DNA from: Streptomyces globisporus | GTDB taxonomy: Bacteria > Actinomycetota > Actinomycetes > Streptomycetales > Streptomycetaceae | Direction: 5' to 3' | DNA length: 64,000 nucleotides | Assembly (NCBI GenBank): GCA_014649555.1 | Contig: BMTG01000004.1 | Span: 62,001-126,000 of the forward strand | Shown here: positions 170 through 6,442 of the stretch, piece after piece | Layout of the letters: each line of letters starts with the position of its first letter | Numbering within the stretch: position 1 is the first letter of the stretch | Notes under the pieces: generated by a model | The model's input: the letters and a program-made list of their open reading frames with translations, nothing else | Databases searched by the model: none | Told to the model about the DNA's origin: nothing | Translations under genes and position numbers: made by a program

Positions 170-1387
170 TCAGGAGTACCAGGTGGGTTCGGGGAGTTCG
201 CCGGTCAGGACGTGCCGGCCGACCTCGCGCCGCTTGTAGGCGACCGGGTCGTGGAGGGTGTGGGTGCGGACGTTGCGCCAGAAGCGGTCGAGGCCCTCGG
301 CGGAGGCGGTGGCGCGGGCGCCGGTGACCTCGAAGATGCGGCTGGTTACCTCCAGCGCGACCTCGGTGGCCCGTGCCTTTGCTGCCGCGACCCGCACCTC
401 GAACGCGGCACGGGACTGCTCGGTCACCTCGTCGGGCGCGTCGTGCAGCTTCTGCCCCTCGGCGGCGACCGCTTCGGCCAGGGCTTCGACGGCCCAGAGC
501 TTGGCGGTGAGGTCGCCGTAGGTGTCGATGACGTACGGCTCGTCGACGGCCTGGTCGTACCCGCCGTGCAGCCAGGAGCGGGCCTTGGTACGGGTGTAGG
601 TGGCGGCGGTCTCCAGGGCCCCGGCGGCGATGCCCAGGTAGAAGCTGATGAACACCAGCTGGATCGTGGGCACGTTGAGGGTGTTGTAGACGCGGGGCCG
701 GAACTCCTTGTCGACATAACCGGCGGCGGAGGCCCACGGGGTGCGGACGCCGTCGATGGTGACGCCACCGCTCTCGGTGAGGCGCTGGCCGATGTTGTTC
801 CAGTCGTCGTGGAAGACCAGCCCCGGGCTGTCGGAGGGCACGATGGCGAAGATGTGCTGGTCGGTGCCTTCGAGAACGCCTTCGAGGACGGTGACGTCGG
901 AGACCTTGCTGCCGGTGGAGAAGGTCTTGGCGCCGGTGAAGACGAGGTCGTCGCCGTCCTCGGTGACGACCACATCGCTGTCGCGCGGGTTGACCGCGCC
1001 GCCGAAGAACCAGGTGTGCCGGACCGCCTCGGCCTCGACGTGCTCCCACTGCTCGCGGGTGCCGACGAGACGGGCCGCCCAGTTCCAGAGGTAGTGGTAG
1101 CCGAGGAGCTGACCGATCGAGCCGTCGGCCTTGGCCACCTCGCGGATCACCCGGTAGGCGGTCGTCCAGTCCTGTCCCCCGCCGCCGTGCTCGGCCGGGC
1201 CGAGCAGGGTGACGAGCCCGGAGTCCTTGAGCAGCTGGATCTCGGTGTACGGGGTGGCGCCCGCCTTGTCGCGGGCGGCGGCGTCGGTGGCGAGGATGGC
1301 CGCGGCCTCGGCCGCGCGCACGATCCAGGCGTCGGGGCTGTCCGGGGCGGGGAGGGTCTTCCACTGCGTGGGCGCTGCGGTGCTCAT
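170..1387 (-). CDS. sfnB: FMNH2-dependent monooxygenase of the SfnB/DszC acyl-CoA dehydrogenase-like family
   Basis: A 405-aa protein with the acyl-CoA dehydrogenase fold: an N-terminal helical domain, a central beta domain (VFTGAKTFSTGS) and a C-terminal four-helix part (RFWRNVRTHTLHDPVAYKRR). The terminal RNxRTHTLHDPV motif marks the SfnB/DszC/DnmZ branch, which oxidises sulfur or nitrogen compounds using reduced flavin and oxygen. The ATG at 1387 was chosen because it overlaps the sfnG stop as ATGA, although the frame stays open further upstream. With sfnG and an FMN reductase next door it probably helps release sulfur from organosulfur compounds such as dimethyl sulfone derivatives. The exact substrate cannot be read from sequence. 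Confidence 0.8.
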   Translation of the reverse strand: MSTAAPTQWKTLPAPDSPDAWIVRAAEAAAILATDAAARDKAGATPYTEIQLLKDSGLVTLLGPAEHGGGGQDWTTAYRVIREVAKADGSIGQLLGYHYLWNWAARLVGTREQWEHVEAEAVRHTWFFGGAVNPRDSDVVVTEDGDDLVFTGAKTFSTGSKVSDVTVLEGVLEGTDQHIFAIVPSDSPGLVFHDDWNNIGQRLTESGGVTIDGVRTPWASAAGYVDKEFRPRVYNTLNVPTIQLVFISFYLGIAAGALETAATYTRTKARSWLHGGYDQAVDEPYVIDTYGDLTAKLWAVEALAEAVAAEGQKLHDAPDEVTEQSRAAFEVRVAAAKARATEVALEVTSRIFEVTGARATASAEGLDRFWRNVRTHTLHDPVAYKRREVGRHVLTGELPEPTWYS

Positions 1388-2508
1388 GACGAACCTTCCG
1401 ACGACGGACGGGCTTGGTGGTCCTCCAGCTCCCGCACGAGCGGCAGCACCTTCTTGCCGAAGTACTCGACCTCCTCGTGGTAGTGGAGGAAGCCGAGGAG
1501 CAGCAGATCCACGCCGAGGCGCTTGTAGGCGACGATGCGCTCGGCGATCTGTTCCGGGGTGCCGATCAGCCCCGTACGGAAGCCGTCGTTGTACTGGACG
1601 AGGTCCTCGAAGGAGGAGTCCTGCCACATGCCCTTGCCGTCGGCGGTGGAGCTTCCGGCCTGCCTGACGGCCGAGCCGAAGCCGTGGACGGCCTCGGTGT
1701 CGGCCTTGGCGACGATCTCGCGCAGGGTGTCGCGGGCCTCCGCCTCGGTGTCGCGGGCGATGAGGAATCCGTTGAGGCCGAAGCGCGGCGGGGTGCGTCC
1801 GGCGCCCTCGGCGGCGGCCCGGACGTCCGCGATCTGCTCGGTGACGCCGTCGAAGTCCTTGCCGTTGGAGAAGTACCAGTCGGAGACGCGTCCGGCCATC
1901 TTCCGGGCGGCGGTGGAGTTGCCGCCCTGGAAGATCTCCGGATGCGGGCGGTCCGGTGAGGCGATCGGCCTGGGCTTCAGCGAGAAGTCGCGGATGCGGT
2001 AGAAGTCTCCGGCGAGTTCGGCGTGGTCCTCGGTCCAGACGGCACGCAGGGCCCGGATGAACTCCTCGGAGCGGCGGTAGCGCTCGTCGTGTTCCAGCCA
2101 GGGTTCGCCGAGCGCGGTGAACTCGTCCTTGAACCAGCCGCTGACCACGTTGACGGCGAAGCGTCCGTTGCTCAGGTGGTCGGCGGTGGCGCCGAGTTTG
2201 GCGAGGACGCCGGGGTGCCAGAGGCCGGGGTGGACGGCGGCGATGACCTTCAGCCGCTGGGTGGCGAGGAGCAGGGCGAGGCTGAAGGAGGTGGACTCGT
2301 GCTGGTACTCGGCGCCGTAGCCGGCCAGGTAGCGGACCTGGCTGAGCGCGTAGTCGAACCCGTTGTTCTCGGCGAGGACGGCGAGTTCGCGGTTGTAGTC
2401 GTAGCCCCAGTCGGTGCGTTGCTCGATCGTGCTGGTGACGAGGCCACCGCTGACGTTGGGGACCCAGTACGCGAAGCGCACCGGGTCGGCGGAGGGCGGA
2501 TGGGACAT
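1384..2508 (-). CDS. sfnG: Dimethyl sulfone monooxygenase SfnG (bacterial luciferase-like)
   Basis: A 374-aa TIM-barrel flavin monooxygenase. It opens RFAYWVPNVSGGLVTSTIEQ, and the VNVVSGWFKDEF and LEHDERYRRSEEF blocks are characteristic of SfnG and close SsuD relatives. SfnG converts dimethyl sulfone to methanesulfinate using FMNH2 from an SsuE-type reductase. The length fits the family (about 360-375 aa). A GGGAGAA ribosome site lies 5 nt before the ATG. It is coupled to sfnB by a 4-bp overlap and lies 225 nt downstream of a cysteine-containing leader ORF, so expression probably responds to cysteine supply. An alkanesulfonate monooxygenase role is the main alternative. Confidence 0.85.
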   Translation of the reverse strand: MSHPPSADPVRFAYWVPNVSGGLVTSTIEQRTDWGYDYNRELAVLAENNGFDYALSQVRYLAGYGAEYQHESTSFSLALLLATQRLKVIAAVHPGLWHPGVLAKLGATADHLSNGRFAVNVVSGWFKDEFTALGEPWLEHDERYRRSEEFIRALRAVWTEDHAELAGDFYRIRDFSLKPRPIASPDRPHPEIFQGGNSTAARKMAGRVSDWYFSNGKDFDGVTEQIADVRAAAEGAGRTPPRFGLNGFLIARDTEAEARDTLREIVAKADTEAVHGFGSAVRQAGSSTADGKGMWQDSSFEDLVQYNDGFRTGLIGTPEQIAERIVAYKRLGVDLLLLGFLHYHEEVEYFGKKVLPLVRELEDHQARPSSEGSS

Positions 2509-2589
2509 GGAGTTCTCCCGGAACAGGAACAGGCCCAGGAACAGGCGCAGGAAGGCGGGTCGGGCGTGGTGGCGGGCACGGCGAACCGG

Positions 2590-2618
2590 CCCCGGTGATC
2601 GAGAAACCCGATCAGGGG
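2590..2618 (-). promoter_or_regulatory. Candidate attenuator hairpin before sfnG
   Basis: An inverted repeat TGATCG/CGATCA with a 7-nt loop, extended by CCCC/GGGG across a 2-nt bulge. It lies in the leader between the cysteine leader ORF and sfnG. It could be part of an attenuator, but it has no clear U-run. Confidence 0.3.
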
Positions 2619-2706
2619 CGATGGGCGCGGCAAGGAAGCCGCGAGGGCGTGCACGGACTCACACGGCCGGACATGGGCGTACGTGTGGGGGTGCGGGAGC
2701 GCGAAG

Positions 2707-2722
2707 GAGGGGCCGACCCCTC
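2707..2722 (-). promoter_or_regulatory. Hairpin just after the leader ORF stop
   Basis: A 6-bp stem (GAGGGG/CCCCTC, loop CCGA) starting about 10 nt beyond the leader peptide stop codon, where a ribosome paused on the Cys codons could affect folding. Its role is inferred only. Confidence 0.3.
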
Positions 2723-2732
2723 GGACCTCGCG

Positions 2733-2804
2733 TCAGCGGGAACAACAGAAGGCGCTGGAAACGCGGCCGAGGTCGATGTGGCGGCGACGGGTCAAGCGGC
2801 GCAC
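2733..2804 (-). CDS. Putative cysteine-responsive leader peptide upstream of sfnG
   Basis: A 23-codon ORF starting GTG at 2804, with AAAGGAGAGG placed 5 nt before it. Translated, it is MRRLTRRRHIDLGRVSSAF followed by Cys-Cys-Ser-Arg. The R-R-H-I-D-L-x-R-V-S-S-A-x-C pattern is the recurrent 'putative leader peptide' signature found in Streptomyces upstream of sulfur-metabolism genes. Two adjacent Cys codons close to the stop fit a cysteine-sensing attenuator, as described for polycysteine leader ORFs in mycobacteria. It precedes sfnG-sfnB by 225 nt, and two hairpins lie between. It is too short for ordinary gene finders. An overlapping ATG two bases upstream (2806) opens only a four-codon frame and was not chosen. 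Confidence 0.75.
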   Translation of the reverse strand: MRRLTRRRHIDLGRVSSAFCCSR

Positions 2805-2918
2805 ATCCCTCTCCTTTCGCGTTCCGCGGCGGGCGCCCGGTGGCTCACGGGGCGCCTTCGGGTTCCAGAGTAGGGCGCGGGAACGCTCCGGGTCGAGAAG
2901 GCATCGACGAAGGAGCGA

Positions 2919-2924
2919 TAGGGT
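2919..2924 (+). promoter_or_regulatory. Candidate -10 for the lysR gene
   Basis: TAGGGT matches the TANNNT -10 pattern 35 nt before the LysR start. On the other strand TACTCT (2872-2867) is a comparable -10 for the leader-sfnG transcript, so the two promoters would be divergent and about 50 bp apart. Confidence 0.35.
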
Positions 2925-2959
2925 TCCCCTTCCACGGCCTCAGGCTGGAAGGAAAAGCG

Positions 2960-3871
2960 ATGCGGATCGAACAGCTTGAGTACATCGAGGCCGTCACCCG
3001 GCTGGGGTCCCTGCGCCGGGCGGCGGAGGAACTGCACCTGTCCCAGCCCGCGTTGAGCGAGACCGTACGGAACCTGGAGCGCGAGCTCGGGGTGACCGTG
3101 CTGGACCGCAAACGGTCGGGGGCGACGATCAGCGACGCCGGGCGCGAGCTGCTGCCGCACATCATCGGGGTGCTGGACGCGGTCGACCGGCTGCGCCGGG
3201 CGGCGGACGAGCAGCACCGCACGAGCCGTACGGTCCGGCTCGGCACGGTCTTCGCGGCGACGGTCCCCCTGCTCGTCCCGGCGATCCGGGAGTTCCACGC
3301 GCTGCACTCGGCCACCGAGGTGGAGGTGATCGCGGCCCAGCAGTCGGTGATCCACCGCTCCCTGCTGGAGGGCGGCGTCGACCTCGGCCTGGTGAACTAC
3401 CTGGAGGGCGACGACCTGGCGCCCGACCTCCACACCACGGAGCTGCTCCGGGGCCGCCCGGTCGTCTGCCTGCGCCCGGACAGCCCGCTGGCGTCCCGGG
3501 AGTCGGTCGGGGTGGACGACCTGCTGAGCGAGCCGCTGATCGTGATGCGCTCCGGCTATCTGATGCACCGCTTCACCCACCGGCTGCTGAAGGGCCGGGT
3601 GCCCTCGTTCTCGTACTCCGCCGACGGCGCGGAGATGGGCAAGCTGATGGTGGCGGAGGGTCTTGGCGCCACCGTGCTGCCGGACTACAGCGTCATCGGG
3701 GACCCGCTGGAGCGCACGGGCGCGATCACCTGCCGCCCTCTGCAGGACGACACGACCACGGTCCTCCTGGTGGTGCAGCGCAGCCGCTCGGGCTCGGTCA
3801 CGCGGGCCGCGCGCGATCTGCACCGGATCTTCGTGGAGCGCGCGGAAGCGCACCGCACGGAAGACGTCTGA
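2960..3871 (+). CDS. LysR-family transcriptional regulator
   Basis: A 303-aa protein. The N-terminal winged HTH is typical of LysR: MRIEQLEYIEAVTRLGSLRR, then AAEELHLSQPALSETVRNLE, residues about 1-60. An effector-binding domain fills about 90-300. GGAAGGA lies just before the ATG at 2960; the frame is open further upstream but contains no better start. It is divergent from the leader-sfnG-sfnB unit across a 155-nt region, the usual place for a LysR regulator to control both itself and its target. By position it may act as a CysB/SfnR-like sulfur-status regulator, but the effector cannot be predicted from sequence. Confidence 0.88.
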   Translation: MRIEQLEYIEAVTRLGSLRRAAEELHLSQPALSETVRNLERELGVTVLDRKRSGATISDAGRELLPHIIGVLDAVDRLRRAADEQHRTSRTVRLGTVFAATVPLLVPAIREFHALHSATEVEVIAAQQSVIHRSLLEGGVDLGLVNYLEGDDLAPDLHTTELLRGRPVVCLRPDSPLASRESVGVDDLLSEPLIVMRSGYLMHRFTHRLLKGRVPSFSYSADGAEMGKLMVAEGLGATVLPDYSVIGDPLERTGAITCRPLQDDTTTVLLVVQRSRSGSVTRAARDLHRIFVERAEAHRTEDV

Positions 3872-5254: not shown

Positions 5255-5282
5255 GGCGCGGTCACGTCACCCCAGCCGTGAG
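5239..5282. repeat. 17-bp direct repeat spanning two convergent stop codons
   Basis: GTCACCCCAGCCGTGAG occurs at 5239-5255 and again at 5266-5282. The first copy encodes the last codons of the MFS gene; the second, read on the other strand, encodes the end of the 391-aa gene. Confidence 0.9.
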
Positions 5283-6442
5283 AGTGCGGCCGCGACCGCC
5301 TCCAGGTCCGGTCCGGAGGCCAGTCCCGCGTGGTACAGGCGCAGTTGGTCCGCGCCGAGCGAGGCGGCGTGGGCCGCGTCGCGCTCCAGGGTGCGGGGGC
5401 TGCCGCCCATCCCGGTGACGACCCCGAAGTTGGCGGCGCGCACACCTCCGCGCCCGGCGAACGGCCCGAGGACGGCTTCCCGTACGGCGTCGGACCCGGT
5501 GCAGGGCAGCACCACCCCGTCGGCCACGGCGAGGACGTGGTCCGGTTCGACGCCGACGTTGGCCCCCGTGCGGTACGGGACGGGGTCGGCGTGCAGCAGC
5601 ACCTGGAAGCCGGGCGGGGCCGCCGCCCGTACGGCTGCGACGGCCGCCTCCTGCACCGTACGGGCCACCCGGCCGCGCCATCGCAGGGTGGCGTCCGCGT
5701 ACGTCGGCCCGAGCAGCTTCGCGATGCCGGCGCGGCCGGACTCCGGGGAGCCGCCGCCGGACCAGGCCGGCTCCAGGGCCCGGCGTACGGCGGCGGACAG
5801 CGCCTCCGGGTCGGCGCCCGCGTCCCCGTACCCCTCGCGGCACACCGCGCAGAAGCACAGCGACATCAGATACTGCGCCGCGTCGCCGAGGCCGACGCCG
5901 GCGACCTTGTCGTGGGCGTGGAGATGGGCGAAGCCGTACCAGCCGCAGGACTCCAGTTCGGTGCCGTGCGTGCCGGGCCGGGCGGCGGCCTCCGCCGCGA
6001 GGTCCACGAGGTAGGCGCGTACGTCGGGGCGGGCGATGCAGGGAGCCCAGGGGTAGCGGTCGCCGTAGGCGTTGACCACCGAGGTGTCCGGGTGTTCCGC
6101 GCCGAGCCGGGAGCTGTGCGCGAGGACCACCCAGCTGTGCACCTCCAGGCCCGCGGCGGCCAGTGCATCGGCGGCCTCCCCGTACGGATCGCCGCCGGGC
6201 GTCCAGCTCTGGCGGTACGGGGCGAGGGAACGGCCCGCCCAGCGGTCCGGGTCCGGCGGGTAGAGGACGGCGGCGTGCCCGGCGGTCACGATGCGGTGGG
6301 CGGGGTGGCGGGGGGTCAGGGCCCGGGTGGAGTGGTAGGCGGAGGCCAGGGTGACCTGCCGGACGCCGAGGTCGGCGATCCGTGCAGCGGCGTCCGGGTC
6401 CCCGACGACGTCCCAGGGGTAGAGGAAGGCACCCGCCTTCAC
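5267..6442 (-). CDS. Uncharacterised 391-aa protein, probable (beta/alpha) barrel, in the kdgD operon
   Basis: I do not recognise a named family. The protein opens MKAGAFLYPWDVVGDP and has repeated strand-helix patterns (VRQVTLASAYHS, LEVHSWVVLAHSS, FQVLLHADPVPY, LRLYHAGLA). A Cys-rich patch CFCAVCREGYGD lies near residue 200 and an ESCGWYGFAHLH segment before it, suggesting a metal site or a barrel active site of the glycoside-hydrolase-like or TIM-barrel type. There is no signal peptide. It overlaps kdgD by 4 bp (ATGA), so it is coupled to aldarate breakdown, and it is divergent from uronate dehydrogenase. An enzyme acting on uronate-containing sugars is plausible but unproven. Confidence 0.6.
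   Translation of the reverse strand: MKAGAFLYPWDVVGDPDAAARIADLGVRQVTLASAYHSTRALTPRHPAHRIVTAGHAAVLYPPDPDRWAGRSLAPYRQSWTPGGDPYGEAADALAAAGLEVHSWVVLAHSSRLGAEHPDTSVVNAYGDRYPWAPCIARPDVRAYLVDLAAEAAARPGTHGTELESCGWYGFAHLHAHDKVAGVGLGDAAQYLMSLCFCAVCREGYGDAGADPEALSAAVRRALEPAWSGGGSPESGRAGIAKLLGPTYADATLRWRGRVARTVQEAAVAAVRAAAPPGFQVLLHADPVPYRTGANVGVEPDHVLAVADGVVLPCTGSDAVREAVLGPFAGRGGVRAANFGVVTGMGGSPRTLERDAAHAASLGADQLRLYHAGLASGPDLEAVAAALSRLG

Follow-up and report, generated by a model that had tools for sequence, protein, structure and literature searches.

Mycobacteria are said to carry leaderless polycysteine short ORFs that mediate cysteine-responsive attenuation, and in Escherichia coli the tnaC leader brings about Rho attenuation through the control that the ribosome exerts on Rho access. 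The mycobacterial ORFs, credited to Canestrari et al. 2020, are cited in the accessible text of two papers (PMC13236596, PMC9094748), and leader peptides of cys operons have been described from Mycobacterium, Propionibacterium and Bifidobacterium (PMC1262725, accessible sections), where Seliverstov et al. proposed Rho for the mycobacterial cys leaders while calling this a rather weak prediction. For Streptomyces, the available part of the S. lividans reannotation names eight leader peptides and links none of them to cysteine (PMC8079986). Among the titles and abstract openings listed, a scope that leaves most subscription papers outside, neither an sfnG leader nor the codon rule described below is reported.

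The window analysed here, a stretch of 64,000 nucleotides from Streptomyces globisporus, contains on its minus strand (2804..2733) a 23-codon ORF that runs from a GTG start (2804-2802) to a stop codon at 2735-2733, translates as VRRLTRRRHIDLGRVSSAFCCSR and is separated by 224 nt from the sfnG start codon (ATG, 2508). An AAAGGAG Shine-Dalgarno sequence (2811..2817, minus) stands 6 nt 5' of the GTG, in agreement with the first-pass annotation, which had reported an ORF with a strong ribosome site; read on the plus strand, 2733-2804 is unrelated to the leader peptide. We consider it likely that this ORF is translated into an NF042934-type leader peptide which acts in cis and ties expression of the sfnG operon to the supply of cysteine (sulfur). 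A candidate promoter of the leader transcript, TCGACC-18 nt-TACTCT (2867..2896, minus), was recognized by eye, and matches TAnnnT with one deviation from nTGACn, the S. lividans consensus as found in the available part of PMC8079986. A strict sigma-70 scan of 2300-3100 called no promoter. An overlapping ATG in another frame (2806-2792, minus) opens a short M-C-A-A-stop frame that shares the leader's ribosome site and is retained, by eye, in seven loci (L001, L004, L031-L035; with altered bases in L035) of the window's own clade, which we take from the species names to be the griseus clade.

The NCBIfam model NF042934, "putative leader peptide", covers leader residues 3-20. With the cut-off at 27 bits, the leader reaches 33.7 bits in the peptide search (E 2e-8) and 31.4 bits in a whole-genome search (E 2.3e-6), so that the actinobacterial leader-peptide motif noted at first reading is upheld above a curated cut-off. 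These E-values, together with the coding conservation described below, place the leader ORF beyond chance. The mycobacterial Cys-rich leader models NF042936 (Ms4527A) and NF042933 (Ms5788A) gave 21.2 and 20.5 bits, both below their cut-off of 45, and an Rfam scan of the window returned none of 4227 families at gathering score.

Downstream of the leader, sfnG (1384..2508, minus; ribosome site CGGGAG, 2520-2515) encodes a dimethylsulfone monooxygenase (TIGR04021, 633 bits; cut-off 383), and its stop is overlapped by 4 nt by the start of a flavin monooxygenase gene (170..1387, minus). The product of the latter falls under both curated cut-offs (269 against 431 bits for SfnB, TIGR04022; 304 against 850 for a second model); hence the sfnG-sfnB pair named previously stands as regards sfnG, whereas its partner is better called SfnB/DszC-like. 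This second gene has a match at more than 60% identity in 56 of the 96 leader loci considered below. On the other side of the leader lies a divergent LysR-type regulator (2960..3871, plus; PF00126, PF03466). The closest named sfnG loci among the matches listed are from Streptomyces, at 96% protein identity, and a plasmid search with sfnG gave five records at 74-79% identity. Farther away, a minus-strand ORF of 391 residues (5267-6442) is matched by no NCBIfam model and by no Pfam family above cut-off.

Conservation of the leader was assessed in front of sfnG. The gene was found in 36 of 150 genomes of the same genus, and loci from 30 of these, among them that of the window, were analysed; the best 80 out of at least 585 confirmed relatives in a named collection brought the total to 110 loci. 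A leader of NF042934 type precedes sfnG in all 96 Streptomycetaceae loci examined, the window's included, and these represent 87 distinct sequences; the comparison with relatives that the first-pass annotation had called for thus comes out in its favor. Among other actinobacteria the motif pattern, applied to 1200 nt upstream (898 nt for L110), identified a leader in one of 14 sfnG loci, that of Nocardia concava (L105), which is excluded from the counts of 96 and 87 and whose motif Cys codon, by eye, is TGT. Pattern matches in L100 and L101, lying 49-50 nt before sfnG and without the motif Cys, were rejected as leaders. Across the 96 loci the motif starts 149-331 nt upstream of sfnG. In the 87 distinct leaders the motif residues L, T, R, H, D, L, R, V and S are near-fixed while third codon positions vary, as is expected of a translated peptide: the motif His is encoded by CAC in 53 and CAT in 34, and the Arg five codons on by CGC in 49, CGT in 32, CGG in four and AGG in two.

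The manner in which the leader begins is less uniform. In 70 of the 87 distinct loci the leader ATG is preceded at 28-45 nt by TTGAC or CTCGACC and no ribosome site is apparent, an arrangement from which a leaderless leader ORF is predicted; the griseus clade instead has a ribosome site and GTG. Across this switch between predicted leaderless and Shine-Dalgarno-led starts (Streptomyces loci L001-L098) the peptide motif and its UGU codon remain constant. The number of cysteines is far less constant: from the motif His onward there is one in 21, two in 50 and three in 16 of the 87 leaders. The emphasis originally placed on a Cys-Cys pair is therefore not sustained, since 21 of the 87 sfnG leaders have a single Cys; it is one particular cysteine, and not the pair, that is conserved.

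In the window the codon of this motif cysteine, the proposed sensor codon, is the TGT at 2745..2747 (minus), followed by a second TGT at 2744-2742. The motif Cys is TGT in 87 of 87 distinct sfnG leaders and in nine of nine leaders from the same genome. Across the class, the window's genome included, it is TGT in 114 of 116 leaders and TGC in two (L213, L222), while the remaining Cys codons of those leaders are TGC in 93 and TGT in 22 cases (n=115). Fisher's test on motif against other Cys codons gives p 3e-40, a value computed over orthologues that are not independent, yet 109 of 111 distinct strings agree. Background usage also runs the other way, with a TGC:TGT ratio of 122:9 in 42 genes of the window predicted by a rough script and of 135:20 in script-predicted genes near 29 class loci. 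The class set derives from a search of 60 genomes, with matches at E 0.001 in 50, above the cut-off in 45, and in none of 14 control genomes. By hand count the listing comprised 128 rows, and the motif codon place was read in 115, the 13 unread rows being L137 (at a contig end and out of register), two sfnG rows duplicating L001 and L029, and ten below the cut-off. Addition of L118 and L119, both below the cut-off, from the own-genome search gave 117, and removal of L200 gave 116; a TGC row for L134, at 1369, is off-target and not the family match. The own-genome search itself gave 13 rows, of which the four weakest (L120-L123, within longer open frames) were dropped. L200 is a leader-like ORF with a UGA stop at the motif Cys place, where the profile match ends one codon earlier (profile position 18).

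Such near-invariance speaks in favor of the Cys codon acting through its decoding; read most simply, selection may bear on the decoding of UGU itself. Two other explanations bear on the same counts. The nascent HxDLxRV peptide could act as an arrest peptide that responds to cysteine or a sulfur metabolite by stalling the ribosome, in which case the codon would be incidental. In the rows read, the NF042934 match is ungapped over the profile positions across differing operons and families, fixing the distance from motif to Cys, which counts in its favor; UGU and UGC, however, specify the same residue, and the retention of UGU over its synonym in 114 of 116 leaders means that the peptide alone is insufficient to explain the conservation. 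We hold arrest by the peptide to be possible, though rather doubtful. UGU could also be conserved as an element for RNA pairing or RNA binding and not for decoding. In favor of this, a C or T directly follows the motif Cys codon in 112 of 116 class leaders and in all 87 sfnG leaders, and in 49 of 103 cases the downstream ribosome site pairs better with UGU than with UGC. In the other 54, however, UGC pairs equally well or better, so that ribosome-site pairing leaves the conservation of UGU unexplained, and the downstream ribosome sites vary among operons. An RNA element of this kind appears unlikely, and we retain selection on UGU decoding as the preferred reading.

The genes that follow the sister leaders mostly point to sulfur. 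The same genome has nine leaders, seven above the NF042934 cut-off and two under it, which precede a ThiS-family gene (followed, by eye, by a cysM-like frame), cysteine dioxygenase, sulfite reductase, sfnG, an ABC permease, flavin reductase, rhodanese, a dicarboxylate-type symporter and a TauD dioxygenase. The earlier statement that similar leaders precede sulfur genes in Streptomyces is therefore corroborated within this genome by eight further leaders, mostly before sulfur-linked genes. Ten hand-picked loci from across the class add DUF4395, luciferase-like monooxygenases, CbiX, APS kinase, sulfite and PAPS reductases, a PLP enzyme and a substrate-binding protein. In L164 (by Pfam) and L218 (by likeness) the leader precedes a 2-oxoacid ferredoxin oxidoreductase-like gene, which is not an obvious sulfur gene and is perhaps linked through iron-sulfur. 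A UGU leader stands before cysteine dioxygenase in L112 (by Pfam) and in L157, L158 and L160 (by likeness of leader and protein start), and the device may thus also govern cysteine breakdown. Because this cysteine-degrading enzyme has a sister leader, a uniform rule in which low cysteine means expression is unsafe.

The breadth of these downstream genes also bears on whether the leader matters for sfnG at all. The peptide might be a trans-acting small protein, with sfnG controlled by the divergent LysR regulator alone, and that regulator is indeed divergent in 90 of the 96 leader loci, no match being found within the available stretch of the other six. Against this, the same leader type precedes unrelated genes and its conservation reaches the level of the codon; we regard a peptide acting in trans as most improbable, and continue with a leader acting in cis.

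What the leader would act upon is the untranslated spacer between its stop and sfnG (2509..2732, minus). The two hairpins of the first-pass annotation are both visible by eye: one directly after the leader stop, CGCGA...GAGGGG TCGG CCCCTC..TCGCG without a T run (2700..2732, minus), and the dyad CCCCTGATCGGGTTTCTCGATCACCGGGG (2590..2618, minus). Stems resembling the former are seen by eye in the griseus-clade alignment, and a terminator scan did not call it a terminator. The core of the dyad is retained in six of six aligned griseus-clade sequences, bar one variable base and one inserted C, while the spacers around it otherwise diverge. The region as a whole, however, folds no better than shuffled sequence: the RNA 2845-2490 has a z of -0.51, with 33 of 100 shuffles folding equally well or better. 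The intrinsic terminator scan found none in the spacer, which removes an intrinsic terminator as the output in the window, its sole terminator-like site (one found, 0.4 expected) lying inside the leader. Modelling a ribosome at the UGU of the window moved the accessibility of the sfnG ribosome site from 0.19 to 0.18. With no signal from shuffling or ribosome masking, a folded switch in the window was rejected. The dyad was also rejected as a regulon operator, as the genome has only two more sites, both with 3 mismatches, and no second copy of its 19-base core at fewer than 3. A dyad-like sequence, RRTCGGGYWT, is present in 36 of 87 loci, at a distance of 40-115 nt 5' of the codon for the motif His and, in those inspected, just 5' of the leader -35.

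Base composition suggests another output. The first 204 nt of the spacer are 45% C and 28% G, and C outnumbers G in every one of the 87 sfnG spacers and in 83 of 85 spacers from the class; of 27 control gaps, all taken from the window, 15 show the same. The excess of C over G is greater in the spacer than in the DNA preceding the leader in 87 of 87 sfnG and 81 of 85 class cases, and 13 control loci with sfnG and no leader have, over the 150 nt ahead of the ribosome site, a C minus G of only -0.13 to +0.11. Rho prefers C-rich, G-poor RNA. Given this preference and the generality of the C-richness, we place Rho first as the putative output in the window, where the spacer would be a candidate Rho-loading region. 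This spacer and the UGU rule are the two points of our analysis that look new.

In mycobacterial polycysteine leaders the reported output is different, in that codons of the Cys region are said to sequester the ribosome site until a ribosome stalls. An equivalent arrangement at sfnG, with codons around the Cys paired to its ribosome site and a stalled ribosome freeing the site, draws its evidence from the main Streptomyces clade, where TCC-TGT-TGC pairs with GCAACAGGAG. This helix has 10 of 10 pairs in 28 and nine of 10 in 19 of the 87 loci (47 together), and its seventh pair is T-A in 39 and C-G in 22, though a C-A mismatch in 11. The mean number of pairs, 8.16, lies above all of 500 swaps (mean 7.95, maximum 8.07), a small gain in a statistic that ignores kinship; the mean duplex energy of -16.6 compares with -15.1 in 200 permutations, none as low; and 37 of 87 loci reach p <=0.05 against synonymous resampling, under a null that fixed Cys as TGC. 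The ribosome site is paired to the leader, at p >0.5, in 43 of 87 loci, and its mean accessibility is 0.12 when free, 0.19 with a ribosome at UGU and 0.11 with a ribosome 12 codons earlier. Modelled stalling nevertheless raises accessibility by more than 0.2 in just 15 of 87 loci, and lowers it in one. In the window the pairing ranks 0.19, with a synonymous-codon p of 0.87, and in the ensemble the sfnG ribosome site is unpaired with the leader. Class-wide the median rank is 0.47 (n=93), with ranks of 0.1 or less in six, and the pairing was rejected as a general output. Direct sequestration is thus conceivable but on the whole somewhat unlikely; pairing of the Cys codons with the sfnG ribosome site is plausible solely in Streptomyces clades other than the window's.

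Taken together, the kind of explanation first offered, in which a ribosome stalled by low cysteine opens sfnG expression, is strengthened by the conserved leader motif and the sulfur-linked sisters, but loses the hairpin switch in the window. We infer a cysteine response, and its direction, as follows. When Cys-tRNA(Cys) is scarce, the ribosome would halt with UGU in the A site and HIDLxRV in the upper exit tunnel, and the halted ribosome would alter what becomes of the RNA downstream. The likeliest route in the window would be that it controls how Rho reaches the C-rich spacer, as the base composition suggests; in the main Streptomyces clade, freeing the sfnG ribosome site from Cys-codon pairing is a possible added output. 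By analogy with mycobacteria, stalling would raise sfnG expression.

It is tempting to speculate that the whole NF042934 family is a UGU-specific sensor, combining a wobble-read UGU with HxDLxRV at a fixed distance and an output mainly through Rho, although we think this improbable. Were halting specific to UGU, the signal might include how well tRNA(Cys) reads that codon, beyond its charging. Methylthiolation of A37 in tRNA(Cys) is known from other bacteria, and this sulfur-dependent modification may serve as an example of such an input; miaA and miaB are both present in the genome. Apart from this speculation, the leader connects dimethyl sulfone desulfurisation in Streptomyces with nine leaders of one genome that resemble a single ribosome-read sulfur regulon, and the UGU rule offers a one-base test of the 'Cys-rich leader' idea. 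Replacing UGU with UGC leaves the peptide intact and, under established decoding rules, calls on the same tRNA, but should break or weaken the sensor. The rule is equally a simple mark by which such leaders may be found and checked in actinobacteria.

Compared with the described systems, the window leader shares with the mycobacterial polycysteine ORFs a short ORF, Cys codons and a position upstream of sulfur genes. It differs from those leaderless ORFs in having a Shine-Dalgarno sequence and GTG with two Cys only, and in the window a sequestration of the next ribosome site, as in mycobacteria, is not supported. With tnaC of E. coli, as that system is generally known, it would share ribosome-controlled Rho access, the ligand, peptide and sequence being unrelated. 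Like the cys leaders in the accessible sections of PMC1262725, it has no conserved terminator; unlike it, those carry runs of Cys codons, and a cysteine leader from Streptomyces is not among them in these sections. With NF042934 (cis_reg_atten) it has in common an above-cut-off match, an actinobacterial host and a place before a sulfur gene, and we found nothing that excludes membership. The window leader is real, another NF042934-type leader of a kind already known and most likely cysteine-responsive.
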